Shown one piece after another: positions 1,081-47,242 of a stretch of 64,000 bases of DNA. The DNA lies in NCBI GenBank assembly GCA_029834535.1, contig JAQMWT010000178.1, forward strand, positions 1-64,000. The letters run 5' to 3'. Within the stretch, counting starts at the first letter, position 1; each line of letters begins with the position of its first letter. The notes below the pieces were generated by a model, which had not been told where the DNA came from, made no database searches, and saw only the letters and a program-made list of their open reading frames with translations. The DNA comes from Chrysophaeum taylorii (taxonomy: Eukaryota > Sar > Pelagophyceae > Pelagomonadales > Pelagomonadaceae). The translations under genes and the position numbers were made by a program.

Positions 1081-1105
1081 TCCTAACTACTAATCGACAG
1101 ATGTT

Positions 1106-1136
<31 letters not shown>

Positions 1137-2154: not shown

Positions 2155-3201
2155 TCCTAACTACTAATCGACAGATGTTTGTCTGTCTGTTTGTTTGTCT
2201 GTCTGTTTGTTTGTCCCTCGATTTAGGGTAAGGATCAGGTAGGCGCGAGAGTAAGGATCAGGTAGGCGCGAGAGCCAGACAGTGATCCTCCAAGCCGTCT
2301 ACGGCGACCTCGCAGACTATTTCCACGACCCGCGGCGGCTCTTTCAGCGCGCCATTCTCACGCCCCGTCGAAACGATGTTGTCGATGCTGACAACGCGCG
2401 CATGACCGCGGCCTTTTTTTCCCGGAGACGAGGCGTCGGAGTTCTTTTCGGCCGACTAGGTTGGGTCGGAAGACGACGCCTCGCTCTTTATAGTCGAGTT
2501 TTCGACTCCCTGACAACCAACGGCATGCTGACTTTGATCGCGAGGTTAAAGTCTTCGCAACCTCGACCCGTCGCACGGCCTCTGCAACGGTACCAGATAC
2601 ATGATCGATCGTGTCGTTGTCACCGAGGCTCCTCCAACCTGTATCGCTTAAGGCCCGCCTACGCCAAACGATCAACAAGAGCCAGGGCCAGACGTCCCGC
2701 GAGGTCGGCGTCCTCTTGCCGAAGCCCGTCTTCTGCCACGTCCAGCTCTACGTGGCTCTCTGTCGATCGGCAACCCCGAGGATATCCTCTTCTGGTTCGA
2801 CGACTCCGCCCTACCCCACACGTGCTGCGCAATACCGATAAGCCCCCTCCCGGCGTCTACACGCGCACTGTAGGTGAACTTACTGGGACCAGGTGAACTT
2901 ACTGGGACCAGGTGAACTTACTGGGTCTAGACATTGGGGCTAGGTGAACTGAGTGGCCAGGTGAACTTACTGGGACCAGGTGAACTTACTGGGGTTTTTA
3001 GAGTAAAGGGTTTTTAGAGTGAACTCAAAGGTTGGCGGCGCGTGCGGACCAAAGCAGCTTAGGTTGGCGGAGGCGAGAGCGACGAGCTCAAAGGAGTTGG
3101 TTAGAGCTAGGTGAACTTACTGACCAGGTGAACTTAACAGAAACAGGTGAACTTGATGCGGTTAGAGATTGGGAGTAGGTGAACTTACTGGCCTGCACTT
3201 G
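2155..3201 (+). mobile_element. Helitron-like repeat, copy R2 (middle of trio)
   Basis: This is a full-length copy with the same termini as R1, joined directly to R1 and R3. The helicase remnant is open from about 2282 to 2896 if frameshifted pieces are ignored, and the motif pieces QTINKSQGQT and QLYVAL are easy to read. The 3' minisatellite differs from R1 in unit number and has a duplicated TTTTTAGAGT segment near 2995-3020. The direct junction CACTTG|TCCTAAC on both sides suggests tandem insertion or replication rather than separate landings. Confidence 0.75.
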
Positions 3202-4220
3202 TCCTAACTACTAATCGACAGATGTTTGTCTGTCTGTTTGTCTGTTTGTCTGTTTGTCCCTCGATTTAGGGTAAGGATCAGGTAGGCGCGAGAGTAAGGA
3301 TCAGGTAGGCGCGAGAGCCAGACAGTGATCCTCCAAGCCGTCTACGGCGACCTCGCAGACTATTTCCACGACCCGCGGCGGCTCTTTCAGCGCGCCATTC
3401 TCACGCCCCGTCGAAACGATGTTGTCGATGCTGACAACGCGCGCACGACCGCGGCCTTTTTTTCCCGGAGACGACGGAGTTCTTTTAGGCAGACTAGGTT
3501 GGGTCGGAAGACGACGCCTCGCTCTTTACAGTCGAGTTTTCGACTCCCTGACAACCAACGGCATGCTGACTTTGAGCGCGAGCTTAAGGTCTTCGCAACC
3601 TCGACCCGTCGCACGGCCACTGCAACGGTACCAGATACATGATCGATCGTGTCGTGTCACCGAGGCTCCTCCAACCTGTATCCCTTAAGGCCCGCCGACG
3701 CCAAACGATCACCAAGAGCCAGGGCCAGACGCCCCGCGAGGTCGGCGTCCTCTCGCCCAAGCCCGTCTTCTGTCACGTCCAGCTCTACGTGGCTCTCTGT
3801 CGATCGGCAACCCCGGGGATATGCTCTTCTGAGTCGACGACTCCACCCTACCCCACACGTGCTACGCAATACCTATAAGCCCCCTCCCGGCGTCTACACG
3901 CGCACTGTAAGTGAACTTACTGGGACCAGGTGAACTTACTGGAACCAGGTGAACTTGCGGAGGTTAGAGATTGGGACTAGGTGAAATTAGTGACCAGGCG
4001 AACTTACTGAGACCAAGTGAACTTACTGGGGTTTTTAGAGTAAACTCAAAGGTTAGCGGCGTGTGCGGATCAAAGCATCTTAGATTGGCGGGGGTGACGG
4101 CGACGAGTTCAAAGGAGAGTGGATGTGAGCACGAGTGGGTTTACGCCGAATTTACTGGGGTTAGAGATTGGGACTAGGTGAACTTAACGGGGACTAGGTG
4201 AACTTACTGGCCTGCACTTG
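3202..4220 (+). mobile_element. Helitron-like repeat, copy R3 (last of trio)
   Basis: Full-length third copy, ending CCTGCACTTG and followed by T at 4221. It lacks the bases that encode part of the GDEASEF segment in R1 and one base in GTCGTTGTCACC, so its helicase remnant is shifted differently from its neighbours. Its 3' end is 39 bp from the stop codon of the methionyl-tRNA synthetase gene, so it may lie in that gene's 3' untranslated region. The sequence ACTTATTA follows the element at 4221 and also occurs just left of R1; a target duplication around the whole trio is possible but weak. Confidence 0.72.
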
Positions 4221-14640: not shown

Positions 14641-17600
14641 GGGTGGGCGTTGCTGGCGCAGACGCGGCACCGGAGCCTCAACGCCTCGCGAAGCTCGCGG
14701 CCAATCTCCGCGTTGGTTGCGTATCTCCACTTTATGCTGTACTCCTCCCTCTTGAGGTGAAACAATGCCGACCTCCGCTCGCAATTCACAAGGGTAACGT
14801 CGGCGTTAGAGACTCCCGGTATGCGCTCCTTACAGTTGTGCCTCGCGCGCCCAACCACGAACGCTTCCTCCAACAACCGCTGCTTATCATCATCCTCCTG
14901 CTCCTGTGTGTGGACATACCTCACGTAGTCACCTTTCCGCGGCGGAAATCGCGCCGCGCCCTTCACATCGTCGTCCGCGTTGCTCGCCTCCAGCTCAACC
15001 CGCGTCGCAGCCCGCCACCGTCTTACCTCAACCTCTTCGATTGACCCGTTTTCGAGCCATTCCACGTCGCACACGCGCTGCTTGACGCGCACCACGCGCG
15101 CGACCGCGTCGTCGATGACGATGAACGAGTCCACCGCAGGCTGCTCTTCTGATGACTCGTTGTTGGCTGCCACCTCCTCCGTCTCCGGCGTGTCTCCAAG
15201 AAGCTTTTCTTGCTCGGCTGCTGCAACCTCGGCACGCGTGGCAAAACGCCACAGAGATCCAAACTCGCTGAGGCGCACTTCCATGCGCCCTTTCGGCACT
15301 GGCTCAAGCTCGGATACGCACACAAAGCTGAACTTGATGGCCGATGTCTTCTTCTCCATTTTTGGCTTCGATTCAACTCGAACCACATACACGTCCTCGT
15401 CAAGGCTCACGTCGTTGTGCCTTCTGTGGACAACATACTCGCCCTTGGCCGGGACGTGACACTCGACACCGACCGGCTCATCATCGTTCTGCAACATTTT
15501 TTCTTCACCAGGCTGCTCTTCTGATGACTCGTTGTTGGCTGCCACCTCCTCCGTCTCCGGCATGTCTCCGAGAAGCTTTTCTTGCTCGGCTGCTGCAACC
15601 TCGGCACGCGTGGCAAAGCGCCACACAGATCCAAACTCGCTGAGGCGCACTTCCATACGCCCTTTCGGCACTGGCTCAAGCTCGGATACGCACACAAAGC
15701 TGAACTTGATGGCCGATGCCTTCTTCTCCATTTTCGGCTTCGATGCAACTAGCACCACATACATGTCCTCGTCAAGGCTCGTGTTGTTATGCCTTCTGTG
15801 GACAACATACTCGCCCTTGGCCGGGACGTGACACTCGACAGCGACCGGCTCATCATCGTTCTGCAACATTTTTTCTTCACCAGGCTGCTCTTCTGATGAC
15901 TCGTTGTTGGCTGCCACCTCCTCCGTCTCCGGCGTGTCTCCGAGAAGCTTTTCTTGCTCGGCTGCTGCAACCTCGGCACGCGTGGCAAAGCGCCACACAG
16001 ATCCAAACTCGCTGAGGCGCACTTCCATACGCCCTTTCGGCACTGGCTCAAGCTCGGATACGCACACAAAGCTGAACTTGATGGCCGATGCCTTCTTCTC
16101 CATTTTCGGCTTCGATGCAACTAGCACCACATACATGTCCTCGTCAAGGCTCGTGTTGTTATGCCTTCTGTGGACAACATACTCGCCCTTGGCCGGGACG
16201 TGACACTCGACAGCGACCGGCTCATCATCGTTCTGCAACATTTTTTCTTCACCAGGCTGCTCTTCTGATGACTCGTTGTTGGCTGCCACCTCCTCCGTCT
16301 CCGGCGTGTCTCCAAGAAGCTTTTCTTGCTCGGCTGCTGCAACCTCGGCACGCGTGGCAAAGCGCCACAGAGATCCAAACTCGCTGAGGCGCACTTCCAT
16401 ACGCCCTTTCGGCACTGGCTCAAGCTCGGATACGCACACAAAGCTGAACTTGATGGCCGTTGTCTTCTTCTCCATTTTCGGCTTCGATGCAACTAGCACC
16501 ACATACATGTCCTCGTCAAGGCTCACGTCGTTGTGCCTTCTGTGGACAACATACTCGCCCTTGGCCGGGACGTGACACTCGACAGCGACCGGCTCATCAT
16601 CGTTCTGCAACTTTTTTGCATCACCAGGCTGCTCTTCTCCTCCGTCTCTGGCGTGTCTCCGAGAAGCTTTTCTTGCTCGGCTGCTGCAACCTCGGCACGC
16701 GTGGCAAAGCGCCACAGAGATCCAAACTCGCTGAGGCGCACTTCCATACGCCCTTTCGGCACTGGCTCAAGTTCAGATACGCACACAAAGCTGAACTTGA
16801 TGGCCGATGTCTTCTTCTCCATTTTCGGCTTCGATGCAACTAGCACCACATACATGTCCTCGTCAAGGCTCGTGTTGTTATGCCTTCTGTGGACAACATA
16901 CTCGCCCTTGGCCGGGACGTGACACTCGACAGCGACCGGCTCATCATCGTTCTGCAACATTTTTTCTTCACCAGGCTGCTCTTCTGATGACTCGTTGTTG
17001 GCTGCCACCTCCTTCGTCTCCGGCGTGTCTCCAAGAAGCTTTTCTTGCTCGGCTGCTGCAACCTCGGCACGCGTGGCAAAGCGCCACAGAGATCCAAACT
17101 CGCTGAGGCGCACTTCCATACGCCCTTTCGGCACTGGCTCAAGTTCAGATACGCACACAAAGCTGAACTTGATGGCCGATGTCTTCTTCTCCATTTTCGG
17201 CTTCGATGCAACTAGCACCACATACATGTCCTCGTCAAGGCTCGTGTTGTTATGCCTTCTGTGGACAACATACTCGCCCTTGGCCGGGACGTGACACTCG
17301 ACAGCGACCGGCTCATCATCGTTCTGCAACATTTTTCTTCACCAGGCTGCTCTTCTGATGACTCGTTGTTGGCTGCCACCTCCTTCGTCTCCGGCGTGTC
17401 TCCAAGAAGCTTTTCTTGCTCGGCTGCTGCAACCTCGGCACGCGTGGCAAAGCGCCACAGAGATCCAAACTCGCTGAGGCGCACTTCCATACGCCCTTTC
17501 GGCACTGGCTCAAGTTCAGATACGCACACAAAGCTGAACTTGATGGCCGATGTCTTCTTCTCCATTTTCGGCTTCGATGCAACTAGCACCACATACATGT

Positions 17601-20600
17601 CCTCGTCAAGGCTCGTGTTGTTATGCCTTCTGTGGACAACATACTCGCCCTTGGCCGGGACGTGACACTCGACAGCGACCGGCTCATCATCGTTCTGCAA
17701 CATTTTTCTTCACCAGGCTGCTCTTCTGATGACTCGTTGTTGGCTGCCACCTCCTTCGTCTCCGGCGTGTCTCCAAGAAGCTTTTCTTGCTCGGCTGCTG
17801 CAACCTCGGCACGCGTGGCAAAGCGCCACAGAGATCCAAACTCGCTGAGGCGCACTTCCATACGCCCTTTCGGCACTGGCTCAAGTTCAGATACGCACAC
17901 AAAGCTGAACTTGATGGCCGATGTCTTCTTCTCCATTTTCGGCTTCGATGCAACTAGCACCACATACATGTCCTCGTCAAGGCTCGTGTTGTTATGCCTT
18001 CTGTGGACAACATACTCGCCCTTGGCCGGGACGTGACACTCGACAGCGACCGGCTCATCATCGTTCTGCAACATTTTTTCTTCACCAGGCTGCTCTTCTC
18101 CTCCGTCTCTGGCGTGTCTCCGAGAAGCTTTTCTTGCTCGGCTGCTGCAACCTCGGCACGCGTGGCAAAGCGCCACAGAGATCCAAACTCGCTGAGGCGC
18201 ACTTCCATACGCCCTTTCGGCACTGGCTCAAGTTCAGATACGCACACAAAGCTGAACTTGATGGCCGATGTCTTCTTCTCCATTTTCGGCTTCGATGCAA
18301 CTAGCACCACATACATGTCCTCGTCAAGGCTCGTGTTGTTATGCCTTCTGTGGACAACATACTCGCCCTTGGCCGGGACGTGACACTCGACAGCGACCGG
18401 CTCATCATCGTTCTGCAACATTTTTCTTCACCAGGCTGCTCTTCTGATGACTCGTTGTTGGCTGCCACCTCCTTCGTCTCCGGCGTGTCTCCAAGAAGCT
18501 TTTCTTGCTCGGCTGCTGCAACCTCGGCACGCGTGGCAAAGCGCCACAGAGATCCAAACTCGCTGAGGCGCACTTCCATACGCCCTTTCGGCACTGGCTC
18601 AAGTTCAGATACGCACACAAAGCTGAACTTGATGGCCGATGTCTTCTTCTCCATTTTCGGCTTCGATGCAACTAGCACCACATACATGTCCTCGTCAAGG
18701 CTCGTGTTGTTATGCCTTCTGTGGACAACATACTCGCCCTTGGCCGGGACGTGACACTCGACAGCGACCGGCTCATCATCGTTCTGCAACATTTTTTCTT
18801 CACCAGGCTGCTCTTCTGATGACTCGTTGTTGGCTGCCACCTCCTTCGTCTCCGGCGTGTCTCCAAGAAGCTTTTCTTGCTCGGCTGCTGCAACCTCGGC
18901 ACGCGTGGCAAAGCGCCACAGAGATCCAAACTCGCTGAGGCGCACTTCCATACGCCCTTTCGGCACTGGCTCAAGTTCAGATACGCACACAAAGCTGAAC
19001 TTGATGGCCGATGTCTTCTTCTCCATTTTCGGCTTCGATGCAACTAGCACCACATACATGTCCTCGTCAAGGCTCGTGTTGCTATGCCTTCTGTGGACAA
19101 CATACTCGCCCTTGGCCGGGACGTGACACTCGACAGCGACCGGCTCATCATCGTTCTGCAACATTTTTTCTTCACCAGGCTGCTCTTCTGATGACTCGTT
19201 GTTGGCTGCCACCTCCTTCGTCTCCGGCGTGTCTCCAAGAAGCTTTTCTTGCTCGGCTGCTGCAACCTCGGCACGCGTGGCAAAGCGCCACAGAGATCCA
19301 AACTCGCTGAGGCGCACTTCCATACGCCCTTTCGGCACTGGCTCAAGTTCAGATACGCACACAAAGCTGAACTTGATGGCCGATGTCTTCTTCTCCATTT
19401 TCGGCTTCGATGCAACTAGCACCACATACATGTCCTCGTCAAGGCTCGTGTTGTTATGCCTTCTGTGGACAACATACTCGCCCTTGGCCGGGACGTGACA
19501 CTCGACAGCGACCGGCTCATCATCGTTCTGCAACATTTTTTCTTCACCAGGCTGCTCTTCTGATGACTCGTTGTTGGCTGCCACCTCCTTCGTCTCCGGC
19601 GTGTCTCCAAGAAGCTTTTCTTGCTCGGCTGCTGCAACCTCGGCACGCGTGGCAAAGCGCCACAGAGATCCAAACTCGCTGAGGCGCACTTCCATACGCC
19701 CTTTCGGCACTGGCTCAAGCTCGGATACGCACACAAAGCTGAACTTGATGGCCGATGTCTTCTTCTCCATTTTCGGCTTCGATGCAACTAGCACCACATA
19801 CATGTCCTCGTCAAGGCTCGTGTTGTTATGCCTTCTGTGGACAACATACTCGCCCTTGGCCGGGACGTGACACTCGACAGCGACCGGCTCATCATCGTTC
19901 TGCAACATTTTTTCTTCACCAGGCTGCTCTTCTGATGACTCGTTGTTGGCTGCCACCTCCTCCGTCTCCGGCGTGTCTCCAAGAAGCTTTTCTTGCTCGG
20001 CTGCTGCAACCTCGGCACGCGTGGCAAAGCGCCACAGAGATCCAAACTCGTTGAGGCGCACTTCCATGCGCCCTTTCGGCACTGGCTCAAGTTCAGATAC
20101 GCATACAAAGCTGAACTGGATGGCAGAGGTCTTCTTCTCCATTTTTGGCTTCGACGCAACTAGGACCACATACATGTCCTCGTCAAGGCTCGCGTCGATA
20201 TGCCGTCGGTGCGCGACATACTCGCCTTTGACTGGAACATGACACTCGACAGCGACCGGCACATGATCGGTCGGCATCTCCTCATCACCATGGTGCTCGT
20301 GTGACTCATCATTGGGTGCCTCCTCCTCCTCCTCCGTCTCAGTCGTGACTGGAATACGACACTCGACAGCGACCGGCACATGATCGGTCTGCATCATCTC
20401 CTCATCAACACGTTGCTCGGCTGACTCATCATTGGGTGCCTCATCCTCCTCCTCCGTCTCGGTCGTGTCTCCAAAAAACTTCTCTTGCTCGGCGGCGGAA
20501 ACCTCGGCAGGCGTGGCAAAGCGCCACCGAGTTCCGAACTCACTGAGCCGCACTTCCATGCGCCCTTTCGGTACCGGCTCAAGCTCAGATACGCACGCAA

Positions 20601-23784: not shown

Positions 23785-26700
23785 ATGGCTGCTGCTGCTG
23801 CTGCACTGTTGCGATGGTGGCTCCTAGCACTAACGACGTGGGTCGTCGCCGCGGCTTTGAACGCCACCAATTCAACCAACGCACCAAGCTTCGCGCCATC
23901 GCCGTCCAACGCGACGAACGCCACGAACGCGATGCCGACCACGGCACCGTCGCCGTCCAACGCTACGAACGCCACGAACACGATCCCGATGCCGACCACG
24001 GCGCCGTCGCCGTCCAACGCGACGAACGCCACCAGCACGATGCCGACCACGGCACCGTCGCCGTCCAACGCGACGAACGCGACCTTGGTGGCCGCGCCTA
24101 CGCGTCGTCCAACGGCAAGCCCGGAGCCCACCGGCGCGTTTGGTTCAGCGATCAACGGGACGAACCAACCGACGCCGGCTAATTATCTGACCCCGACCGG
24201 CGTGAATTATGATGACGCGGCCTTTTCCTACAACTATTACGATGATATGACGCCCGTCCCGACCTACGACCCGTTCCTTGACGACGGTGCGACCTATTAT
24301 TATTATTATTATCACGACGACGGCGGCTCTCCCGGCGACGACTTCGTTTTCGACGACAACGACGAGTCGGAGAGATCGTACTCCTTCAACTCTTACAGCT
24401 TTTCGCACGGCGAGTCCTTATCGTTTTCGCGTTTCTCGTCTTATTCTTCTTCTTCGAGTGGAGACGATGACTTCAATTTTGACGACGACGAAACCAACGC
24501 CGCCTCCTCCGTGTCGTACTCAAATTCGTACGATTCGACCAACAATTATTATTTCGACGACTACGGCGGAATTTACTACAATGATTACGCCGCGCGCGAT
24601 GATGCCCTCTCGTTCAACTACGGGGACGGTGAGTCAAGAACTTTGCTTCTAGGTTTGGATGCGACACCGACACCAGGATTCGACGATGCTACGAGCTACG
24701 ACTATGGAGGGGACAACGACTTTCTGTATTACGACGGCTACGGTGATGACGCGTACGCGCACATCAATCCAGCGTCGTAATACATTAAGATGGTCCCAAC
24801 TCCAACGCAGATACGGTGATGATGGCCCGTACTCGGCGGCCTTTGACGATGACTACGCGCACAACCCCAACGTCGAAATCTTTAAAAAATGAATGTCCCC
24901 ATGCTCGACTCGCGCAGGTACGACGATGACACTACGAACTACTATGAAGGGAGTGGTGATGGCGACTACACGCGCGCACGCAGCGTCGAAATAGTAAAAA
25001 TCCTTTTTCTGACATCTGCACGCGTAGGTACGACGACGCTGCGTACTATGAGTATTACTACGGTGGGATTGACGACGCGTACACGTACGAAACTTGCTTC
25101 GCGACGCTGTAGAGTGACCACCACACCGCAGGTACGACGACGCTGCGTACTACGAGTATTACTACGGTGGGACTGACGACGCGTACGCGCACAACTTTAT
25201 TCAGTGTCAAAATTGCCTCTGTTGTTCCATCCTTTTTTACAGAAATGCGCAGATACGGCGACGACATTACGTACTATGAATTTTATGGGAGGACCGACGA
25301 TGATTACGCGCACGATGTCAGCGTCGTCGAATTGAGCTCGTTTATTTTCTTCTCGATCCTCCTAGAACGCTTTCTCTCGCAGGTACGACGACATGCCGTA
25401 CTACTATGGATATGAAGGGAGCGGTGATGACGCGTACACGCGAGAACCCGGCGACGAATCATTCAACGCCTGTGTCTATAGCACGTGCAGTGAAATGCTC
25501 GCGCAGCTATGGCGATGATGCCTACTATTACGGGTATGGAGGGAGTGGCGATGATGCATACGCGTGCGAATCCCGCGCCATACCATAAAATAGTACGCGG
25601 CAACGAATGAAATAAATAGGAGCGCGCAGGTACTACGAAACGCCGTACTACTATGTTTATTACGGAGGTAGCGGCGACGACGACGCGTACACGCACGAAG
25701 CCAGCGTCGTCGCTTTTGTGCTGTCCGAGTCGACCAGATCTGGCAGTGCAGTGAGGCGCCCACTCGATGATCGGCACACGCAGGTACTACGACACTCCAT
25801 ACTATTACGCGTACTTCGAAGGGCCCGGCGATGATGCATACTCGTACAGCAAACCCGCGCCCAATAGTCAAACGATCGCTGGAATTCATTCATTCATTTA
25901 TTTTTTTATTTGCGCAGGTATGACGACGAGTATGGATACTATGAAGGTGCCGACGATGACGAAAAAACGTGCGAAGAAGAGAGCGTTGATTGCGATCGCG
26001 TTGTTGAGTGCAATCGAGTCGTCGCATCGCGCAGGTACGGCGATGGCTACTACGGCGACGACTACGCATACTACGTGTACTACTATGGGGGGGATAATGC
26101 ATTCTCGCATGAAGCTGTGCCTCCTCCAGTCCAGCTGGATCGATCTTCTTCTTGTTAAACTCATAACTCGATGCAACAGGTATGATGACGACGATTTCGG
26201 GCGATACTACTACTACTCTCCGAACTATGGCGACGATGCATACTACTACTCGCATCAAGCAGAGTCAAGAAGAAAAAAGATGCTTGTTATTATTACACCG
26301 TAATAATTGGTTGTTGCATCGCAGTAACGATGATGATTTTTTTGCGTACTTTGGCTACGACGACGATTTGGACTTTGTTGACGATGCGTACTCCGCAGTG
26401 TCTGTCTGTCTGTCTGTCTGCTTGTAAAAGGCTTTTTCTCCACAATCAAATAGGTTCTCTTATTTCTACAACGGATACTATGGCGACGAGAGATACTACT
26501 ACCACTACTCTGCAGACTTGGGGAGCTACGCCTTCGGCGATGACGACTTCGGATTCTACGACGACCTTGTCGACGACGACGACGCCGTATTTAGACCACC
26601 CGTGGGTAGCTACTCGTTTGATGATGACGACGACGACTTTGGAGATGACGCCTATTACGACCCGGAGGATAGGAGCTACTCATACGACGACGACGACGAC

Positions 26701-29700
26701 GACGACTTGATTGACGACGACGACGGCTTGTTTGAAGACGCGGATTATTACTATTACGACGACGCGAGTTACAGCTATGGTTCGTACGGCGATTTGTCGT
26801 TTGGGACACCGAGCAGCCCGTCGGGCGTTCCCGCGCCCGCACCAACGCCCGGGCCGACGACGGCCGGGCCGTCCGTTATCCCCGGGAACCCAACTCGAGC
26901 TCCGGTGATCGCGCCGACGCCAGTGCCGACGACTGCGATACCGACGACATCCCTGCCGTCGCCGGTGCCGACGTTGTCGTCGTGCGACGACCTTCGAGAG
27001 AGAGGCGTCTCGCCCTCCGAACCGCGATTATATTACGCGAGCTTCGACGACACGGGCGCCGGGGTAACATTTCTGTTCGACGAAGAGACCGACCAGGCCT
27101 CGGTGGCAAGCGGGGTCGAGTTCGAGTGCGGCGAAATTTTGGAGTTCCCCGACGTCGAGGCAGCGACGTGCAGCTGGGTCGAGACCACCGAGCTGTACGC
27201 GATCGCGAGCTCGTCGTTATCCTTGGTTCCGTACTCGAACGCGACGCTGCTCCCGGGGGTGCTCAAGGCAAGGTGCGTAGCATCGAGGTGCGAGTGCCAC
27301 CGGTACGCCAACGCCTCGACGGTGGCCGTTTTGCCGCCGGAGACGCCGCCGACGGTCGATGCCATTATCCAGGGTCCGACTTCGGTATCGGTGTGCGACC
27401 AGCTTTCTCTCGCGTCGGAACAGTCTTCGGGGAGCGGGGGCCGCGCGTTCGCGTACGCTTGGAAGGTCACCACCACCCCGACGTCGTCGTCGTCGTTGCA
27501 GAAAAATGCAACCGCAGCCCTCGAGGCGGAAATCGGGGTCGCGAACGCGAACGGCGGCGACGAAGACCTCGTCGTTTCCGGAGAAACGCTCGAGCTGCTG
27601 TACGACTCTGGAGTTCGAGAGCTCGCGGTCGCGCTGACGCTGACGAACTTTTTGTTTGGAACCGACACGTCGGCGGAGTTTCCGGTCGCGTTGAGTTTGG
27701 AGCTGCTGCCGACCGTCGAGATCATCGGCGGCCTCGCGCAGGAGACGACGCGACCGTCGACGCTCTCGATCAAGGCCTCGGCTACCGCGACGTCCTGCGA
27801 CGGGCGACCGCCCGCCGAGCGCGGCGTGAGCTACGATTGGCGCCTGAGTCCGTCGAACCTATCCTCGACGTCTCTCGATCCTCGCACCTTCAGACTTCCG
27901 CCGTACGCGCTCGAAGCGGGATCGTCTTACTCGCTCTCGGTTCGAGTCACCGATACGACGCTCGGCACGTTTGCGACGGCGTCGTGTTCCCTCGCCGTAC
28001 GAAAGTCGGGCGTCGTCGCGTCGATCGGCGGCGGCACCTCGCGCGTCGCCTCGCTGAGCAGTCTCGTCGAGGTATCGGCGTCGCAGTCCTACGACGAGGA
28101 CCTCGGGACCGAAGCGACGGGGGCGGACGCGGGCCTCGCCTTTTGGTGGACTTGCGGCGGCGGCGCGTGCGGCGACGTCGTCGACGCGCAGCGCACCCGG
28201 GAGACCCTCGAGTTCCGCGGCGCCGAGCTCGGAGGCGTCGGTACCTACACGTTCCGCGTCAACGTGACGGCGTCCGACGGCCGGACCGCCGCGTCGTCGC
28301 CCTCCGTCGTAGTCGTCGCGAACGACGAGCCGCCCGTCGTCGAGCTCGACACGTCGACCGTCGCGACGCGCGTGACCAGCACGGCGCGCGTCGTCATATA
28401 CGGGACAGTCGGGCCGCCCGCCTCCTTGAACGCGACGGCATCCAGCAGCCGCCGCCTCTGGGGGTGGTTGAATTCGAGCTGGAGTTTGGAAGGAGGCAGC
28501 TCGTTGGCGGGCGGATCGTCGCTGCGGTCGTGGGCGACGACGCCGACGATATCGTGGTCCCGGAAGGTCGCAACAACGCGGTCCCACGATCTCGCGCTGC
28601 CGTCGGGCTCGCTGGTTGGCGGATCGACGTACAGTTTGCGACTCTCGGCGCTGCTGTCGGACGGGATCAACGAGGGTATCGGGTACGCGACCGTGTCGTT
28701 CGTCGCGGCCAAAGTCCCGACGTCGGGCACGCTCTCCGTGACGCCCGAGGCCGGCGTAGCCCTCGAGACGCTCTTCGTGCTGGATACGGCAAACTGGGTC
28801 ACCTCTGATCTCCCTTTGACCTACGCGTTCAAGTCAGAATCGGGAACGCGCATCACGACGCTGCGCGGAGCGACGCGCCAAGCCGAGCTCGAAGACGCGG
28901 TGCTCCCGGCCGGTTCTCCGAACGTCACCGTCGTCGCCTTCGCCTACGACGCCCTCGGTGGCGAGGCATCGGTGTCGAAGAGCGTCCGCACGCGCCAAAC
29001 CTCTCTTCGCGGCGAGGCGCTCGCGAACGTCGCGCTTTCGCTCCTCGAAACCGCGGCCGCCCAGCGATCGAACGAGGCGGCGTGCCAGGCGGTCGTCGCG
29101 TCGTCGACCGCCGCTGCCAACGACACTGGCCTCCTCGGGATATTGGTGGACGCGCTCGTGGGCGTCGTCGACACCCAGGATGCCGACTCGGACCTCGTCG
29201 AGCAGAGCGCGACGGCGGTCGAAGGTCCTTCGGGTGGCGCGCTCGACTCGTCCAGCGCCGCGACGCTCCTCGACCTCGTCGATTCGCTCGCGACTACCTC
29301 CAGTACCGAAATCAAAGGCCTCACCGATCTCTCGGCGACGAGCCTCGCCTCGAGCCTTTCGGCGCTCCTCGACACCGACCTCTTCGCCCCCCCCGACGCG
29401 ACGACCGCGAACGCGTCTTCGAGAAGGCGTCAACTTCGAGAGGCCGCCGCGTCGACCCTCGGCAGCTCGGTCGACAACATCCTCGCCGCGCAGCTGGCCG
29501 ACAAGGTCGCCGGCGAGGAGGCTTCCACCCTCGAGACCGACAATCTCAAGACGGCGGCGCAGCGCGTCGCGGGCGGCGCGTTTCTGGGGCTCCCGTCCTC
29601 GGACGCGTCGGCCGAGCTTCTAGAAGGCGCGGAGGTCGACCTCCAGCTCGCCGAATACGGCGTCAACCCTTACGCCGGCCGGGGCGACCTAACCTCCAAC

Positions 29701-32595
29701 GTCCTGCGGTTCGGGGTCGCCGCGTCGCAGCAGCAGCGACGACGACGACGACGACAAAGGACTCGTCTTCTTCGAGAAGAAGCAACGAACGCGACAACAA
29801 CGACCGTCGAGCTCCAGCTCACGTCGTCTACCGCTTGGAGTGCTTCCAAAAACGGTTCTTCGATTAGCGTCGCGCGAGCGAACGTGACGTGCGGCTGCGA
29901 CGACTACGCGAACGCGAGCTACGCGTGCCCCGACGGAACGGTGTTGACGAAGGTGTGCTCGGGCTTACCCGGGATCTACGCGCTGACGTGTCCGAGCGCG
30001 ACGACGGCGTGCACCACGTACGTCGACGGCGAGTGGACCTCGGAGTACTGTCGGTTCGTCGACTCGGCGTCGGGCGTGACGCGATGCAAGTGCACCATAC
30101 CCGACGACGACGGCTCGAACGACTTCGCCTCGTCGGACGCCCTCGCCGAATCGTACGCGGCCTACGCCGACACCCTGACCGAGTTCGATCCGAGCCGCGC
30201 GATCACGATGTTCGTCGCGCTCGGCGCTCTCCTCGTCGGCTGCTGCGGGCTCGTCGTCTACGGCAAATGGCTCGACGCGAACGATTCCGCCAGGAGGCGG
30301 TTGCCCCAAAAACAAGGCGGCGTCTATGTATCCACCGTCCTCGATCAAACGAAGCTCTTCAGCGTTAGCAATTCAATCGACCACGACGACGAACAGCAGC
30401 AGCAGCAGCAGCAGCGCCTCGGTTTGGCGCCGCCGCCGGCGGGGGCTTCGTCCAAGGAGCGCGCGACGAAAACGACGGCCGCCAAGAAGGGAATGGCCAA
30501 GGTATCGGCGACGGCGCAGCGGTTCTGGTTGGCCTTCAAGCACCAGCACTCGATCGCGAGCTGGCTTCTCGTCTACAGCGAGACGGTGCCGCGGACGATG
30601 CGCGTTATCGTCATCGCTTTCGAAATTCTCGTCTGCATGTTCGGGTTCGCGCTCGAGACAAACTTGTTGTACGCCGACCCCGGATGCGACGACGAAAATA
30701 CCAAATCCGGCTGTCTCCAGTACAAGGCTGCCTTCTGGGCGGGCGGCGGGCACCAGTGCGAGTGGGAGGACTGCAAATGCAAGCAAAACGTTCCCGACCT
30801 CGACTCGTCGACGAATCCGACGCAATACCTCTTTCTGGGCGTCGTCCTGTTGCTCACCGTTCCGATCACCAAGGCCTTCGAACATCTCTTCGACGAGTAC
30901 CTCGCGGCGCCCGTCCCGGATGCGCTGCGCTGTACCCGCGTTGCCTCTACTTCCCGCGGTGCCGCCGGCAGTCCGCCGAGTCCCGAGCTGCTACGACGAG
31001 AGGTGGAATTGTCGGCGGCGGCGGTCCCGGCCGCGTTGCGGTGCCGCGGCAGTCTCCCCCAAAAAAAACAAAAAGGAGGCCGGCCGCCGAGCGCCGAGGA
31101 GGTCATCGATGTTCAAACGGCGCGCCCTCGCGACGTCGATTTGGAGGAGGAGGAGGAGGAGAGGACCCCCAAATCGGTGGTGGTCGACGCGACGGACTAC
31201 GAGGTGGCGGAGATCGCGGTGGTGGCGAGAAGCGGCGACGGCGGAAGCATGGCGCAGATCAAGGCCTGGCAGGAAGCCGCCATGTCGTGGCTCTCTGGGG
31301 ACGAGGAGCCACCAGTACCGGCGATCGACCGCTGGCAGGAGACGGTGTCGCGAGTGAAAAGCGCCCCTTCGAGCGGTTTCAAAAACGACGGCGGGCCTCC
31401 CCAGGATCGCGAGCTACGGATTGTGAGGCATGATTTCGAGACTTCGGTCGAAACCGTGAGCGCCGAGACGCTCGAGGAGAAGGCGAGGCGGCTCGGTCCG
31501 CGCGTCGCCGAGGCCGTCGCCGCCCAGCTCCTCGAGTTGGGAGAGGTGCGGCGACTCCTCGAGGAGCGGCAGCGAGCGGTCGGTCCCGTCGACGCGATCG
31601 CCGCGGCCGTGCGATCGCGATGGGACTTTTCGGAAGACTACGAGCGGTTTAAGAAAAGTGTCGAAACCACCTTGTACCGCGACCTCATGACGGCGCACAA
31701 GTGGCAGGCAGAAATTGAAGCGTATCGCGAGGCGCTCGAGCCGGAAGACTTCGAACGCGTTCGGTTCGAGACCCTCGAAAAATACGAACGCATCGTCCAC
31801 ATGAAGTCGACGGAGCGCATCGTGTTTAGCGCGTGCTTCGGCCGGCTCGACTTTAGCATGGACGCGCCCGAGGAACCCCCCGCGACCCGAACGTACGTCC
31901 TGGCCGTCCTCGCCGTCTCGTTTACGTTTGGCGGCATGGCCTACTACCTCCTCGGGACGGCGTCGCAGCTCGGCAACCGCGCGACGGCATCCTGGCTCGG
32001 GTCCTTTCTCTTCGGATTTACGCTGAGCGTCGCCATCGCCGAGCCCCTCGCCATCTTCTTCTTCTTCGTATGGATGCCCGACGTCGCTTGGGAACGACTC
32101 GTCGATACCACCCAAGGATCGTTGAGCAAATACCCCTTCCAGCAAACGACCCCCAACGCCTTCACGCTTCTCCTCGAGCTCGAACCGCGCCTCGTCGACG
32201 ATCCCAAGATCATACACCTCGCCGAAGGCGTCCACGGAGAACGCCGCGAACTACGGCGCGACGACCCGCGCTTCCTCGACTTTCTTCAGGTTGAGCTCGA
32301 CGCGATCGCGGACTACGAGACGTGGCGACTCCCCTACGACACCCGCGTGATCCTTCCCCTCCTCGCCGCCTTCGTCCTCCTTCCCGACTTTATCCAGGAG
32401 GCTGCCTTCGAACAAGTCTGCGCTTTCGTGCCCTTCCTCTCCACCCTCGTCCTCCCAAAGTCCCTCTTCGAGAGTCTCGTGCCCAGGGCCCAGTCCACCA
32501 TCGTCCTCCTCTTCTCCGCCCTCGTCGTCGCATTCCTCTACTTTGCCTGCGAGCTCTCGCGCTTCCTCCTCCGCAAAATCGCCGCCCGCTACTAG
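23785..32595 (+). CDS. REJ / polycystin-1-like membrane receptor, 16-exon model with Tyr/Asp microexons
   Basis: Proposed exons: 23785-24628, 24677-24758, 24811-24858, 24918-24971, 25028-25084, 25132-25188, 25253-25309, 25383-25439, 25507-25563, 25630-25692, 25784-25843, 25918-25968, 26035-26106, 26180-26251, 26325-26399, 26454-32595. They join in frame to 2615 residues. The order is: signal peptide; mucin-like SPSNATNATN repeats; a long Tyr/Asp-rich part (about 150-690) in which each microexon gives a YDD..YYxYxGxxDDAY unit; a Pro/Thr linker; a large ectodomain with REJ-like blocks (GPTSVSVCDQLSL near 876); a Cys-rich GPS-like region near 1700-1780; a TM near 1818-1839; and further TMs near 1950, 2026, 2380, 2414, 2532 and 2583. 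REJ/polycystin proteins are surface receptors or channel partners. The intron borders have no transcript support; the last donor (GT at 26400) is the least sure. Confidence 0.75.
24629..26453 (+). other. Microexon array with short introns, mostly GC-AG
   Basis: Fifteen introns of 47-91 nt alternate with fourteen small exons, thirteen of them 48-75 nt long. Those thirteen are multiples of three, and introns 2 to 15 all lie in phase 2. Acceptors read mostly CGCAG|GTAC. Donors at the same place in the unit, TACNC|GY, are GC in introns 2, 3, 4, 6, 7, 8, 10, 13 and 14, and GT in 1, 5, 9, 11, 12 and probably 15. Several introns share blocks such as CAGCGTCGTCG or CGTCGAAAT soon after the donor, so exon and intron seem to have been copied together. 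Confidence 0.75.
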
Positions 32596-36314: not shown

Positions 36315-39300
36315 TGTTATTTTTGCGCCGTGCCGCAATCAGAGAACAAGATGCACATCTTGGATATAATTGCATCGGCCGCCAACCACAGATTTCGGAT
36401 GCTTTGGTAGACGTTCCGGCGCACCGGATATGTTTGGCTATGAATCTAATTACTACACACAAGGAACCTGGGGGTCCTGCCCCGGATTCGTCGTTGTGTC
36501 CGTTTAAATAAAAGAAGTGTACAGGGGAGATTGATTCTGCACGATCGGCCCTCCAAACACAACAACATCCGGCGCACCGGTCATAATGTCCGTGGGCCCA
36601 ACGAGGGTCGTGCGGGCTGCCATTAGAAGAAGAAGAAGAAGAAGACCGTGCCTTTCGCGGGCTGGGGCCACTTCTATTGTTATGATGATCTTCCCGCTGG
36701 GAAGGAAGAGGCACGCACCTATGCGAAATCGCCCAAGTCGTCGAGTCGACGACGACGAGGTCCATCGCGTCCTCCTTCCCTCCTCCTCGTCGTCGTCATA
36801 TTATTCGTTCTCCTCGGACACGAAGCGCCAGGAAGCTGGCTTGGACCCACCCGTTTTAAGAAGAAGGTAGAGTTTGTTTCGAGGAGCCACCCGCTGATTT
36901 TAAACTTCCGTCGTCGTCGTAGGAAACGAAGATACGACCCCTGGAGAGTCCGAGTTTCTCGCGACCGTCCTTGGAGTCTTCGTTGTTGGATACCACCTCG
37001 ATGGGGCCGGGTATCCAGTAGCAACCGGAATTGTGGCGACACTTCACGAAGAAACCTCGACCCAACCTTCTTGACGTTAGAGCTCGTGAACGCTCGACTC
37101 CCGCCGCCTTTGGCGTCGAGTTCGACACGCTGGTCCTCCCAAACAGTGGCACCTGCCGTCGACGCTCGCCCGGGACTACTGCCGCCACGACCAACTTGCG
37201 GCGGGAGTTGGTGTTGATCTCTTCGTAGACGTACTCGAGGTGCGCGGCGAGGAATTTGACCTTGGAAACGGCCTGTTGCCCTAGGTGTTGGACTTGGGTC
37301 CGAGAGCTCGTGCCCGTGCCGACGACGTACCTCTCGATGTTCGCCTCGAGGACGCTCGACCGCGCAGCGTCGACCTCGGGAGCTGCTGCTTAAGTGCCGC
37401 GTCGAGTCGGGGGACGACAGGTTCGACTTTCATGGCCTCCAGGAGCCTGGCGTAGTCGTTCGCTTGGCGTAGTCGTTCGCTTGGCGTAGTCGTTCGCTTG
37501 GCGTAGTCGTTCGCTTGGCGTAGTCGTGAGCTTGGCGTAGTCGTGAGCTTGGCGTAGTCGTGAGCTTGGCGTAGTCGTGAGCTTGGCGTAGTCGTGAGCT
37601 TGGCGTAGTCGTTCGCTTGGCGCTCAGAAGAGGGCCTTCTCGACGGCCGCGCGACGGCGATGGTGCTCCCGGCAGCCTGCGCCTTGTGGTTCGTTCTGCC
37701 GACCACGACGAGCCGCCTCCATCAACGTTCCTCGAACGTCGTCGCAGCGCGTGGCGAGGCGTCCTCCATCAACTCGAACTTCGTCGTCGTCGTTCTTCGA
37801 CCAGCGACATCCTCGTCGCTGGCGCTCGGCCGGAAATCTCGTGGCGGCGCAGTCGAAAAAGATATATATGGTCTCGTTGGCACGAGACGACCCCGGCGCA
37901 GCTTTCGACGCGCACGTTCAAGTAGGCGGCGGCGGCGGCGTGGTATAATACTTCTTCAAGGTGCCAAACTCGAGCTCGTTCGAGTTCCGCCGAGCGCCAT
38001 CGAAGGCCCTCTGGAGCTCCCACGTATGGTTGACCGCCGCCAGGTCGCCGTGGCCAACGTAGCGCGTAGACTACCCCTCCCCCTCCAACGCGCGGCGCAT
38101 GCCGTCCGGCGCGCGTCGAGCATGGTCTCTTGATCATTCGCGGGAGAGTAGACGCGCGCCCTAACGGCCATGACGTCGTGGATCGTGGACTGGCCGTCGA
38201 CGAACAGCTTCGCCGACCCGGCCCGCATCTCGAGGAAATCGGCGTATGTGGCGACTTCGGTTTTTTTCGAAGGATGCCACGTTCATGCTCGGCGGCGAGT
38301 TGTGGATCATAAGTCCCCTGGCACGCTCTCAAGGCTTACGCTCGCTCGATAACTGTCGCAGTTTCGGCTCCGTAGCGGCGAACAACTTGACGAATGATGA
38401 GGTCGCCATACCGATCGGCGATCGCCTCGCCCTCGCCTGCCGCGCTCTAGTCGGAGATCTCGTACGCGCTGAGCGTCCAGTTCTTCATCTCGCGCGTTTG
38501 AAGCGAACCCGGGTGGTCGCGACGCGACCTCCTTGCCGTCGAGAGGCGACGACGCGTCCGTCGCCGCGTCACCGTATCCCAGGGCGACCTCGCGCAAGGA
38601 CGCCCATCTCGGAGCGCAGGTCCCCTAATCAATCATTCGGACGGGAGCTCCGCGTCGCTCGCCTGCTCCGGGCGAACGACCGCCCAGACGACCGAGACCT
38701 CGGGGATCTCCAAAGGCAGAAATAGGCTAGCAGTTTCGTACGAAGCGCCCTGAGCTTGGATTCCCACGGCACGCACTTGCCGGATGGCTTCCGCCCGCGG
38801 GATCCACCGCGCTTCGGTGCTTATCGAGGGCGGCGACCCGCGCTCGATTTCCTCCTCCTCCTCGGCTTGGACGCGGCCCTCGGCAGAGCCGCGAGCTCAA
38901 TCTGCTTCGCCTCCTAGCGTATTTGTCCTCGAGTTGTCGCGTGGCCCGAGGGTTCGATTTCTTCGGTTTGTGCCTCTGCAGCCGCCGCCGCAGCCCGCCT
39001 TGCCACCTCCGTTGACTGGGCCTTGGTCGTCGCGTTGAGCTCGTCGATGGATAAATGCATCTTCGCAGCGTCGCGGTCGTACTGTTTCTCCCTCGACTAA
39101 ACGCTCGTTCTGGACCCGGAGTCGTTCCTCCCAACGGGAACCTCGTACTTCCCTTCGGCCTTCAGACGCACCGCCTCGGACTTAGCCCAGTCTGTCGAGA
39201 GCCTCGGCGTCCTGGTTCGGCTCGCGCTCGGCTGGCCGTTGATGGGTCTCCTCGAGACTTTTGATGTGATATTGTCCTTCGGGGCTACCTGCTTCCGAAG

Positions 39301-44137: not shown

Positions 44138-45175
44138 CCTAACTACTAATCGACAGATGTTTGTCTGTCTGTCTGTTTGTCTGTCTGTTTGTTTGTCCCT
44201 CGATTTAGGGTAAGGATCATGTGGGCCCGCGAGCCACACAGTGATCCTCCAAGCCGTCTACGGCGACCTCGCAGACTATTTCCACGACCCGCGGCGGCTC
44301 TTTCAGCGCGCCATTCTCACGCCCCGTCGAAACGATGTTGTCGATGCTGACAACGCGCGCATGACCGCGGCCTTTTTTTCCCGGAGACGAGGCGTCGGAG
44401 TTCTTTTCGGCCGACTAGGTTGGGTCGGAAGACGACGCCTCGCTCTCAAGAGTCGAGTTTTGAACTCCCTGACAACCAACGGCATGCTGACTTTGATCGC
44501 GAGCTCAAAGTCTTCGCAACCTCGACCCGTCGCACGGCCACTGCAACGGTACCAGATACATGATCGATCGTGTCGTTGTCACCGAGGCTCCTCCAACCTG
44601 TATCCCGTAAGGCCCGCCGACGCCAAACGATCACCAAGAGCCAGGGCCAGACGCCCCGCGAGGTCGGCGTCCTCTTGGCGAAGCCCGTCTTCTGCCACGT
44701 CCAGCTCTACGTGGCTCTCTGTCGATCGGCAACCCCGAGGATATCCTCTTCTGAGTCGACGACTCCACCCTACCCCACACGTGCTGCGCAATACCGATAA
44801 GCCCCCTCCCGGCGTGTACACGCGCACTGTAGTTGAACTTACTGGGACCAGGTGAACTTACTGGGGTTTGAGATTGGGACTACGTGAACTTAGTGACCAG
44901 GTGAGCTTACTGGGACCAAGTGAACTTACTGGGGTTTTTAGAGTGAACGCAAAGGCTAGCGGCGTGTACGGATCAAAGCAGCTTAGATTGGCGGAGGTGA
45001 GAGCGACGAGCTCGAAGGAGAGTGGGGTGAGTGGATGTGAGCACGAGTGGGCTTACGCCGAACTTACTGGGGTTAGAGATTGGGACTAGGTGAACTTACT
45101 GGGACCAGGTGAACTTACTGGGGTTAGAGATTGGGACCAGGTGAACTTACTGGCGAACTTACTGGCCTGCACTTG
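44137..45175 (+). mobile_element. Helitron-like repeat, copy R4, inserted at the TPM start codon
   Basis: Full-length copy starting TCCTAAC at 44137, directly after CCACA, and ending CACTTG at 45175 before TAATA. The first T is also the complement of the A of the TPM gene's ATG, so the element landed inside that codon and restored it. The helicase remnant is long (open about 44241-44855). A GGGCCCGCGAGCC variant replaces part of the usual GGCGCGAGAG block near 44222, as also in R8. Confidence 0.78.
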
Positions 45176-45180
45176 TAATA

Positions 45181-46177
45181 GTCTGTCTGTTTGTTTGTCC
45201 CTCGATTTAGGGTAAGGATCAGGTTGGCGCGAGAGTAAGGATCAGGTAGAAGCGAGAGCCAGACAGTGATCCTCCAAGCCGTCTACGGCGACCTCGCAGA
45301 CTATTTCCACGACCCGCGGCGGCTCTTTCAGCGCGCCATTCTCACGCCCCGTCGAAACGATGTTGTCGATGCTGACAACGCGCGCATGACCGCGGCCTTT
45401 TTTTCCCGGAGACGAGGCGTCGGAGTTCTTTTCGGCTGACTAGGCTGGGTCGGAAGACGACGCCTCGCTCTTTACAGTAGAGTTTTGAACTCCCTGACAA
45501 CCAACGGCATGCTGACTTTGATCGCGAGCTTAAAGTCTTCGCAACCTCGACCCGTCGCACGGCCACTGCAACGGTACCAGATACATGATCGATCGTGTCG
45601 TTGTCACCGAGGCTCCTCCAACCTGTATCCCGTAAGGCCCGCCGACGCCAAACGATCAACAAGAGCCAGGGCCAGACGCCCCGCGAGGTCGGCGTCCTCT
45701 TGCCCAAGCCCGTCTTCTGCCACGTCCAGCTCTACGTGGCTCTCTGTCGATCGGCAACCCCGAGAATATCCTCTTCTGAGTCGACGACTCCACCCTACCC
45801 CACACGTGCTGCGCAATACCGATAAGCCCCCTCCCGGCGTCTACACGCGCACTGTAGGTTAACTTACTGGGACCAGGTTAACTTACTGGGGTTTGAGATT
45901 GGGACTAGGTGAATATAGTGACCAGGTGAGCTTACTGGGACCAGGTGAATTTACTGGGGGTTTTAGAGTAAAGGGTTTTTAGAGTAAACTCAAAGGTTGG
46001 CGGCGCGTGCGGATCAAAGCAGCTTGGATTGGCGGAGGCGAGAGCGACGAGCTCAAAGGAGTTGGTGTGAGCTAGGTGAACTTACTGACCAGGTGAACTT
46101 ATATGAAACTTACTGGGATTAGGTGAACTTACTGGGGTTAGAGATTGGGACTAGGTGAACTTACTGGCCTGCACTTG
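45181..46177 (+). mobile_element. Helitron-like repeat, copy R5, 5'-truncated
   Basis: This copy lacks the terminal TCCTAACTACTAATCGACAG and begins within the TGTC/TGTT microsatellite five bases after R4. The helicase remnant and the minisatellite are present, and the copy ends CACTTG at 46177. It is almost identical to R6, which faces it across an 18-bp AT-rich spacer, and shares with R6 rare variants such as GGTTAACTTACTGGGACC. Confidence 0.75.
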
Positions 46178-46195
46178 TATTAATTAATTAATTAA
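46178..46195. repeat. AT spacer at the centre of the R5/R6 inverted repeat
   Basis: The 18 bp TATTAATTAATTAATTAA separate the facing 3' ends of R5 and R6. The spacer is itself palindromic (TTAATTAATTAA). Any single strand of this region could fold into a hairpin with ~1-kb arms. Confidence 0.85.
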
Positions 46196-47242
46196 CAAGT
46201 GGAGGCCAGTAAGTTCACCTACTCACAATCTCTAACCCTAGTAAGTTTAGGTCTGGTCCCAGTAAGTTTCATATAAGTTCACCTGGTCAGTAAGTTCACC
46301 TAGCTCACACCAACTCCTTTGAGCTCGTCGCTCTCGCCTCCGCCAATCCAAGCTGCTTTGATCCGCACGCGCCGCCAACCTTTGAGTTTACTCTAAAAAC
46401 CCTTTACTCTAAAACCCCCAGTAAATTCACCTGGTCCCAGTAAGCTCACCTGGTCACTATATTCACCTAGTCCCAATCTCAAACCCCAGTAAGTTCACCT
46501 GGTCCCAGTAAGTTAACCTACAGTGCGCGTGTAGACGCCGGGAGGGGGCTTATCGGTATTGCGCAGCACGTGTGGGGTAGGGTGGAGTCGTCGACTCAGA
46601 AGAGGATATTCTCGGGGTTGCCGATCGACAGAGAGCCACGTAGAGCTGGACGTGGCAGAAGACAGGCTTGGGCAAGAGGACGCCGACCTTGCGGGGCGTC
46701 TGCCTCTGGCTCTTGTTGATCGTTTGGCGTCGGTGGGGCTTGAGGGATACAGGTTGGAGGAGCCTCGGTGACAGGACACGATCGATCATGTATCTGGTAC
46801 CGTTGCAATGGCCGTGCGACGGGTCGAGGTTGCGAAGACTTTAAGCTCGCGATCAAAGTCAGCATGCCGTTGCTTGTCAGGGAGTTAAAAACTCGACTGT
46901 AAAGAGCGAGGCGTCGTCTTCCGATCCAACCTAGTCGGCCGAAAAGAACTCCGACGCCTCGTCTCCGGGAAAAAAAGGCCGCGGTCATGCGCGCGGCGTT
47001 GTCAGCATCGACAACATCGTTTCGACGGGGCGTGAGAATGGCGCGCTGAAAGAGCCGCCGCGGCTCGTGGAAATAGTCTGCGAGGTCGCCGTAGACGGCT
47101 TGGAGGATCACTGTCTGGCTCTCGCACCTACCTGATCCTTACTCTCGCGCCTACCTGATCCTTACCCTAAATCGAGGGACAAACAGACAGACAGACAGAC
47201 AAACAAACAAACAGACAAACATCTGTCGATTAGTAGTTAGGA
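46196..47242 (-). mobile_element. Helitron-like repeat, copy R6, inverted
   Basis: Reverse-orientation full-length copy; its 3' end reads CTCCACTTG instead of CTGCACTTG. The 5' end TCCTAAC lies at 47242 and is preceded on its own strand by A (host sequence GCATA). With R5 it forms a ~1-kb inverted repeat. It lies 174 bp beyond the stop codon of the two-TM membrane protein gene. Two bases are inserted in the NARMTA segment (AACGCCGCGCGC), shifting the helicase remnant. Confidence 0.75.

Follow-up and report, generated by a model that had tools for sequence, protein, structure and literature searches.

How could a run of small, symmetric exons, several of them apparently followed by a GC donor, come to lie within a single algal gene, and what would it do there? 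The question is raised by a gene on the forward strand of the window, that is, the whole 64,000-nt stretch (positions 1–64000 of contig C178) of DNA from the marine pelagophyte Chrysophaeum taylorii that was analysed. An earlier note, made from the letters of this DNA, had read here thirteen short exons, each encoding one Tyr/Asp unit.

The gene model

The model proposed in the earlier note was rebuilt exactly: 16 exons with a CDS of 7848 nt, encoding 2615 aa and ending in a single terminal stop (Table 1). Exons 3–15 are mini-exons of 48–75 nt, all 13 of them divisible by three and in the same phase (2), just as the note had described them. Intron 1 is in phase 1 and introns 2–15 are in phase 2, with lengths of 47–91 nt. 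The acceptor is AG in 15 of 15 cases, and the donors comprise nine GC and six GT. In 12 of the 13 mini-exons (exons 3–14) the motif NTAY stands immediately 3′ of the AG; exon 15 starts with TAAC. The array is dense, 14 introns (2–15) being set beside 862 nt of coding sequence (exons 2–15); many kinesin, kinase and myosin domains in the same genome appear as single open stretches.

Table 1. Exons and introns of the rebuilt gene model, in window coordinates
Feature	Position	Strand	Description
Exon 1	23785..24628	+	hydrophobic leader (residues 7–25), Asn/Thr/Pro-rich repeats, onset of Tyr/Asp/Ser-rich stalk
Intron 1	24629..24676	+	48 nt, GT-AG, phase 1
Exon 2	24677..24758	+	82 nt, first Tyr/Asp unit; end at 24752 on GT in public model
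Exon 3	24811..24858	+	48 nt; GC donor; in-phase GT only inside unit (24829), none at or after unit end
Exon 4	24918..24971	+	54 nt; GC donor; without listed in-phase GT
Exon 5	25028..25084	+	57 nt; donor GT (GTACGA)
Exon 6	25132..25188	+	57 nt; 54/57 identical to exon 5; donor GC, or GT at 25183 (public model)
Exon 7	25253..25309	+	57 nt; GC donor, GT 30 nt downstream; coding codon-position pattern along whole length
Exon 8	25383..25439	+	57 nt; donor GC, alternatively weak GT at 25434
Exon 9	25507..25563	+	57 nt; donor GT (GTGCGA)
Exon 10	25630..25692	+	63 nt; donor GC, alternatively weak GT at 25687
Exon 11	25784..25843	+	60 nt; donor GT (GTACAG)
Exon 12	25918..25968	+	51 nt; donor GT (GTGCGA)
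Exon 13	26035..26106	+	72 nt; GC donor; in-phase GT only inside unit (26077), none at or after unit end
Exon 14	26180..26251	+	72 nt; GC donor; GT 12 nt downstream
Exon 15	26325..26399	+	75 nt; GT donor; border uncertain: in-phase GT at 26388, 26400, 26412, 26424
Exon 16	26454..32595	+	6142 nt; remaining acidic stalk, Pro/Thr-rich linker, REJ domain (PF02010), Cys-rich GPS-like stretch (visual call, without Pfam match), seven hydrophobic segments
Introns 2–15	24759..26453	+	47–91 nt; AG acceptor followed by NTAY; introns 2, 3, 4, 7, 10 with CAGCGTCG-type block near +10

Two introns of the model are divisible by three and lack in-frame stops. Intron 12 (25969–26034) has 66 nt, a multiple of three, and intron 1 (24629–24676) is likewise stop-free; retention of intron 1 would stay in frame because its length is a multiple of three and it contains no stop. 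Retention would lengthen the protein by a predicted 16 residues for intron 1 and 22 residues for intron 12.

Coding status of the array

Dynamic programming was used to search for in-frame paths that lead from exon 1 into exon 16, with a score made up only of amino-acid composition and a fixed cost per intron; splice signals were not part of it. The composition term was hand-set on the basis of this stalk, and the search therefore favours stalk-like paths. With GT or GC donors and AG acceptors admitted, the best path reproduced the 15 introns of the model to the base with a score of 293.8, as compared with 4.3–14.1 for 20 mononucleotide shuffles, which bears out the earlier assertion that an in-frame join over 2615 residues would be hard to obtain by chance. 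Among the 15 dinucleotides admitted in turn as a second donor beside GT, GC gave the best score (293.8; next CA, 272.0; exons of at least 12 nt), and a search limited to GT reached 241.5 with the same exon limit and 245.7 without it. When acceptors were varied, AG was the best of 16 dinucleotides (next GG, 269.6; three without any path).

The codons of the array point in the same direction. Exons 3–15 contain 78 TAN codons (58 TAC and 20 TAT), none of which is TAA or TAG, and introns 2–15 contain 20 TAA/TAG among 34 TAN triplets; purines occupy 56% of the fourfold sites in exons 3–15. Thirty of the 78 TAN codons lie in the five exons that lack a GT within 6 nt of the unit end, exons that are likewise stop-free. 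When the five 57-nt exons (5–9) are compared, differences number 51/48/107 of 190 at codon positions 1/2/3 (P = 1.7e-4 by column). Exon 7, one of those lacking a GT near the end (within six bases), gives 0.28/0.37/0.63 on its own (P = 0.002), and its nucleotides 19–57 keep the pattern (0.23/0.27/0.65). The copies being related, neither the TAN nor the codon-position counts are independent, and because of this shared ancestry the stop-free TAN codons should be taken as strongly indicative and do not translate into a probability. Judged from these properties of the sequence, the array is real and its coding status almost certain; there is good support for reading it as a row of symmetric coding mini-exons that are spliced together in the gene of a surface protein, and the presence of GC donors at some of the borders is supported.

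The public annotation gives a different picture. In its REJ part the gene has 100% identity with the C. taylorii hypothetical protein CTAYLR_009478 (2136 aa), whose exons could be rebuilt exactly (24247–24628, 24677–24752, 25028–25084, 25132–25182, 25507–25563, 25630–25745 and 26924–32595) and whose six introns are all GT-AG. Five acceptors (24677, 25028, 25132, 25507 and 25630) and three donors (24629, 25085 and 25564) are common to both models, and the donors of introns 2 and 6 are moved in the public model to a GT six bases upstream. Nine of the 13 mini-exons are absent from it, as are the first part of exon 16 and the beginning of the gene, including the hydrophobic leader. The loss of the nine mini-exons and of the gene start from an annotation derived from RNA-seq and homology (71-Mb genome, 10,810 genes; PMC10366177) counts against the full array. 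The public model may, however, be the product of a gene finder confined to GT-AG introns. Its lack of nine mini-exons and leader is a warning for the annotation of similar surface proteins.

Number and context of the GC donors

The earlier figure of nine GC donors out of fifteen holds for the model as such, and GC is the best second donor, but at introns 2, 6, 8 and 10 an in-phase GT lies 6 nt upstream of the GC (GC/GTACNC/GC) and is the donor used by the public model at introns 2 and 6. For exons 7 and 14 an in-phase GT is found only further downstream, and exons 3, 4 and 13, with their modelled acceptors, offer no such GT from the unit end onwards. Since four of the nine have an upstream GT, two a downstream GT and three none, the number of GC donors lies, on this reading, between three and nine. 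The GT-only path keeps 13 of the 15 acceptors, uses a different acceptor at one intron and leaves out exon 4, because that exon has no listed in-phase GT. As to donor strength, the upstream GT scores 5.5 at introns 2 and 6 against −0.5 and −5.3 for the GC, and 1.3 at introns 8 and 10 against −0.7 and −0.8. Even with position +2 left out, the donors of the array have a median of only 2.4 bits, against 5.5 for other introns (p = 0.01), a weakness that counts against the model. A donor deeper in the intron (AGC or AAC/GTCG) was rejected, being out of phase in introns 3, 4, 7 and 10.

Introns elsewhere in the genome were resolved within conserved motifs, and all 16 (nine kinesin, two kinase and five myosin) are GT-AG, a count that leaves out at least three further breaks plus some breaks in the domain tables. 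These introns measure 40–304 nt (median 57) and all rejoin conserved motifs. Twenty kinesin pieces were sampled, six of which gave the nine introns and 13 had no clear intron, the break in locus L043 and one further break in L040 being left out; two of five kinase pieces gave an intron and two none, L061 being left out; each of the five myosin pieces gave one. Protein-motif junctions were used in place of an EM estimate of donor use from coding-potential junctions, which returned noise, and pairs of neighbouring ORFs in 200 kb yielded nothing usable.

The share of GC donors in the sampled ordinary genes is accordingly 0/16, with a 95% upper bound of 17%. The array departs from it whether nine of its donors are counted as GC (9/15 versus 0/16, Fisher test, p = 2.5e-4) or five (5/15, p = 0.018); the contrast would be weak, which counts against the argument, if only exons 3, 4 and 13 truly had GC donors. 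In Aureococcus anophagefferens GC-AG introns account for 39.6% of all introns (PMC3033335), and at this rate 0/16 would have a probability of 0.0003. The idea that GC donors are a normal pelagophyte habit was dropped, because a habit of the lineage does not explain them when 16 of 16 sampled introns are GT-AG. As far as the sample goes, and for the same reason, GC donors appear to be a property of the array, the simplest cause being that one unit with a GC donor was copied.

Two U1-like genes (L036 on contig C64, read on the minus strand, and L037 on contig C330) score 67.2 and 63.3, just under the Rfam cut-off of 69.5, and both have the ordinary U1 5′ end, ATACTTACCTG. That this end pairs poorly with GCACGA-type donors counts against the use of GC. 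A usual U1 5′ end is nevertheless reported together with working GC donors in Aureococcus and Micromonas pusilla (PMC3033335). In C. taylorii, by contrast, the 16 GT-AG introns come from three gene families, and the GC donors are concentrated in one array.

Probable copying of the units

Blocks are shared by eight of the 91 intron pairs at p <= 0.01, where 0.9 would be expected, which confirms the earlier remark that several introns have internal blocks in common. In six of the eight pairs the block is CAGCGTCG near +10 (introns 2, 4, 7 and 10) or its variant CAACGTCG (intron 3); the other two are T-rich. Alignment across the donor border shows homology that extends beyond the exons into the initial ~20 nt of several introns, which argues that the end of the exon was copied along with the start of the intron. 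The proposal that exon–intron units were copied as such is weakened by exons 5 and 6 (window 25028–25188), for which no such copying is seen; they differ at 3/57 sites (95% identical), yet have 20-nt flanks that are 52% and 59% identical. Over all pairs the identity of these flanks averages 40% and 45%, compared with 34% for shuffled 20-mers. The pattern suggests exon-limited gene conversion between exons 5 and 6.

When the array DNA was searched against the 70.8-Mb, 697-contig genome with a program that skips common words, only the array itself was matched, and 15 of 15 matches of the stalk protein to the genome at E <= 1 lie at this locus. GCAGGTAYGAYGAY occurs six times in the genome, four of them in the array; its reversed control occurs three times. 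In a blastn-short search of the introns against ~300 kb of DNA, only the simple-repeat intron 15 did better than E 1.8e-4 among the best 25 matches, and similar matches were also obtained with the reversed control. An introner origin, for which the earlier note had proposed to look, finds no backing in these searches. The 1.5 kb upstream of each of seven REJ paralog loci contained no Tyr/Asp-rich stalk; these loci have Pro/Ser/Thr-rich linkers or stalks instead, and one of them (L002) has only a short linker or stalk, behind another REJ-type stretch. In six examined of 12 homologous proteins no such stalk was found outside C. taylorii, and a homology search with the stalk among proteins of about 310–1000 aa, a range that excludes the 2136-aa public protein, gave no match. 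Because these searches found no relatives of the array in the genome and no Tyr/Asp-rich counterpart at the seven paralog loci, it looks young or private to this gene.

The protein

The predicted protein begins with a hydrophobic leader (residues 7–25) and has 11 N-glycosylation-type sequons in its first 140 residues and none in the stalk. The stalk (residues 141–640) consists of 24% Tyr and 23% Asp; of its 120 tyrosines, 33 stand next to an acidic residue and 60 lie within five positions of at least three acidic residues. The REJ domain (PF02010) scores 143.3 bits against a curated cut-off of 25, a PKD-like match falls just below its cut-off, and seven hydrophobic segments follow from residue 1819. 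Neither GPS nor PLAT domains were detected in Pfam at E <= 0.1. A search of solved structures returned one weak match, to KIAA0319L (E 0.033), and structure prediction of the membrane part, with a mean pLDDT of 45.7, was not good enough for any conclusion. Relatives of the REJ part were not found in viral contigs. A REJ search of the genome gave 55 matching stretches. REJ-type proteins form a large family in this alga, many of them in very long open frames (to 5959 residues). Possible roles of the stalk in this mucilage-forming benthic alga include tyrosine sulphation, dityrosine cross-linking or calcium binding.

Polycystin-1 has GPS and PLAT domains and eleven membrane spans. The present protein resembles the REJ-domain multi-pass proteins, which include polycystin-1-like ones, in its REJ domain, its sub-cut-off PKD-like match and its membrane segments after the extracellular part, but differs from polycystin-1 in having no GPS or PLAT match at this threshold and seven hydrophobic segments instead of eleven.

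Origin and splicing of the array

We consider it probable that the gene encodes a multi-pass surface protein with a REJ domain, the extracellular stalk of which lengthened as one phase-2 exon was copied together with its splice signals, that the GC donor was inherited in this process and that most transcripts include all units. The product would be a secreted, then membrane-anchored, REJ-domain protein of ~2600 residues with a strongly negative stalk. One exon and the adjacent splice signals would have been copied repeatedly by unequal exchange inside introns; if the copied donor context, TACNC/GYRCGA, bore a GC donor, several units may have inherited it from few events, because the context carried it along. 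Exons of neighbouring units, such as 5 and 6, would have been evened by gene conversion confined to the exon. Most transcripts would splice in all units and give one long stalk, the length of which would shift over generations through gain and loss of units, harmless because each unit keeps the frame. Weak donors would be expected to cause some transcripts to retain an intron or to lose a unit.

Two alternatives concern the nature and origin of the array. It might be an unspliced, decaying tandem repeat, the first protein ending at 24780 (331 aa) and the REJ gene beginning downstream. A 331-aa open frame does stop at 24780 and the start of the public model lies inside exon 1, but decay is hard to reconcile with the absence of stops from 78 TAN codons, the codon-position excess, the AG held in register ahead of NTAY in 12 of 13 mini-exons and a path score of 293.8 that shuffles, at most 14.1, do not approach; we regard this reading as very improbable. 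Hardly less improbable is an introner origin, in which mobile elements would have inserted as introns into a tandem repeat that was exonic. Huff et al. 2016 reportedly studied such elements. Introners occur in Aureococcus, likewise a pelagophyte, and some introner families have target-site duplications at the borders and up to 50% GC donors (PMC9860276); the intron starts of the array (GYRCGA) resemble exon starts (GTACGA), as target duplication would have it, and exons 5 and 6 are near identical with different introns between units. Introners are, in contrast, near-identical introns in many unrelated genes, and the array introns are heterogeneous in length and sequence except for the 5′ block; no relative of the array DNA was found elsewhere in the genome (common words skipped), and among the best 25 matches the one intron to beat E 1.8e-4 is simple-repeat intron 15, with the reversed control similar.

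Other alternatives accept the array and concern its splicing. All working donors could be GT: units with GCGTAC would be cut at the GT that lies six bases upstream, exons 3, 7, 13 and 14 at other GTs, which would make the unit shorter or longer, exon 4 would be skipped and the GC sites would be homologous leftovers. Such a reading would agree with the 16 GT-AG introns sampled independently and with the upstream GT outscoring GC at all four introns that have both, two of which (2 and 6) use it in the public model, and an in-frame GT-only path that keeps most units does exist (241.5 versus 293.8). It comes, however, at the price of losing exon 4, trimming exons 3 and 13 and adding non-stalk residues; it leaves the 30 stop-free TAN codons of exons 3, 4, 7, 13 and 14 and the coding pattern in nucleotides 19–57 of exon 7 to be accounted for, and GC beats every other extra donor in the path search, so that we think it unlikely. 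A similarly low likelihood is assigned to the suggestion of the earlier note that regulated skipping of symmetric exons gives many stalk lengths and would tune or diversify a surface receptor. All 13 mini-exons would be frame-neutral when skipped, weak donors favour variable splicing, length isoforms are reported for titin PEVK and spliced isoforms for the micro-exon genes (MEGs) of schistosomes, and short exons with short introns went with exon skipping in the stramenopile Ectocarpus and two other species (PMC6142364). The symmetry, on the other hand, needs no selection for skipping, because it follows from the copying of one unit, and short introns are often paired across the intron, the usual error under such intron definition being retention (PMC6142364). 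It is tempting to speculate, although we find it doubtful, that a spliceosome with canonical U1, otherwise devoted to GT-AG introns, also excises the weak GC-AG introns clustered in this one gene, and that the copied GC donors hold the inclusion of units below 100%, giving graded stalk lengths on a REJ-type receptor across the cell population.

Comparison with known systems

The earlier note knew of no such array, but similar rows of exons exist. The PEVK exons of titin are small and frame-neutral. More than 100 exons in a row encode this charged, repetitive region, its length changes by duplication and loss, and its splicing gives length isoforms (PMC6469411). The present array is likewise a row of exons for a charged, repetitive region; titin, however, is an intracellular protein of vertebrate muscle with reported isoforms, whereas the array belongs to an alga, is extracellular, and has 47–91-nt introns, Tyr/Asp units and several GC donors. 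Schistosome MEGs have short symmetric exons and a signal peptide, keep the frame when exons are removed and encode secreted or surface proteins (PMC8293314), and spliced isoforms of them are reported (PMC8293314, PMC10399815). Short symmetric exons in a surface-protein gene with a leader are the shared feature, but MEGs, as described in 25 families with 72 genes, have mainly exons of <=36 bp (PMC8293314), as against exons of 48–75 nt at a single locus, followed by a 6-kb exon, in C. taylorii. Among the listings returned by a literature search no comparable array in algae or protists was found, which does not prove absence. Exon rows that encode repetitive or disordered proteins and are spliced to different lengths are already known from titin PEVK and MEGs; the novelty here lies in the host organism, in the location of the array on a surface protein of REJ type and in GC donors that occur in a genome where the introns sampled are GT-AG.

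Should the GC donors be used, the array would serve as a small natural experiment on the spread of a 5′ splice-site variant through the copying of exons, and also on how the choice between GT and GC affects inclusion, in an alga for which RNA-seq (SRR22085759) is public (PMC10366177).

Other features of the window

A 372-bp tandem repeat occupies window 15137–20276 (14 copies, 96% matches) and overlaps long minus-strand ORFs, in one of which the Pfam matches look spurious. A dispersed element is present in several copies and both orientations (windows 1102–4030, 44158–47221, 52699–53715 and 59593–60357); it contains a TGTC/TGTT microsatellite, paired 23-bp repeats (GTAAGGATCAGGTAGGCGCGAGA) and 19-bp repeats (AGGTGAACTTACTGGGACC). 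A further tandem repeat, of 17 bp, lies at window 37443–37622 (10.6 copies, 95% matches).
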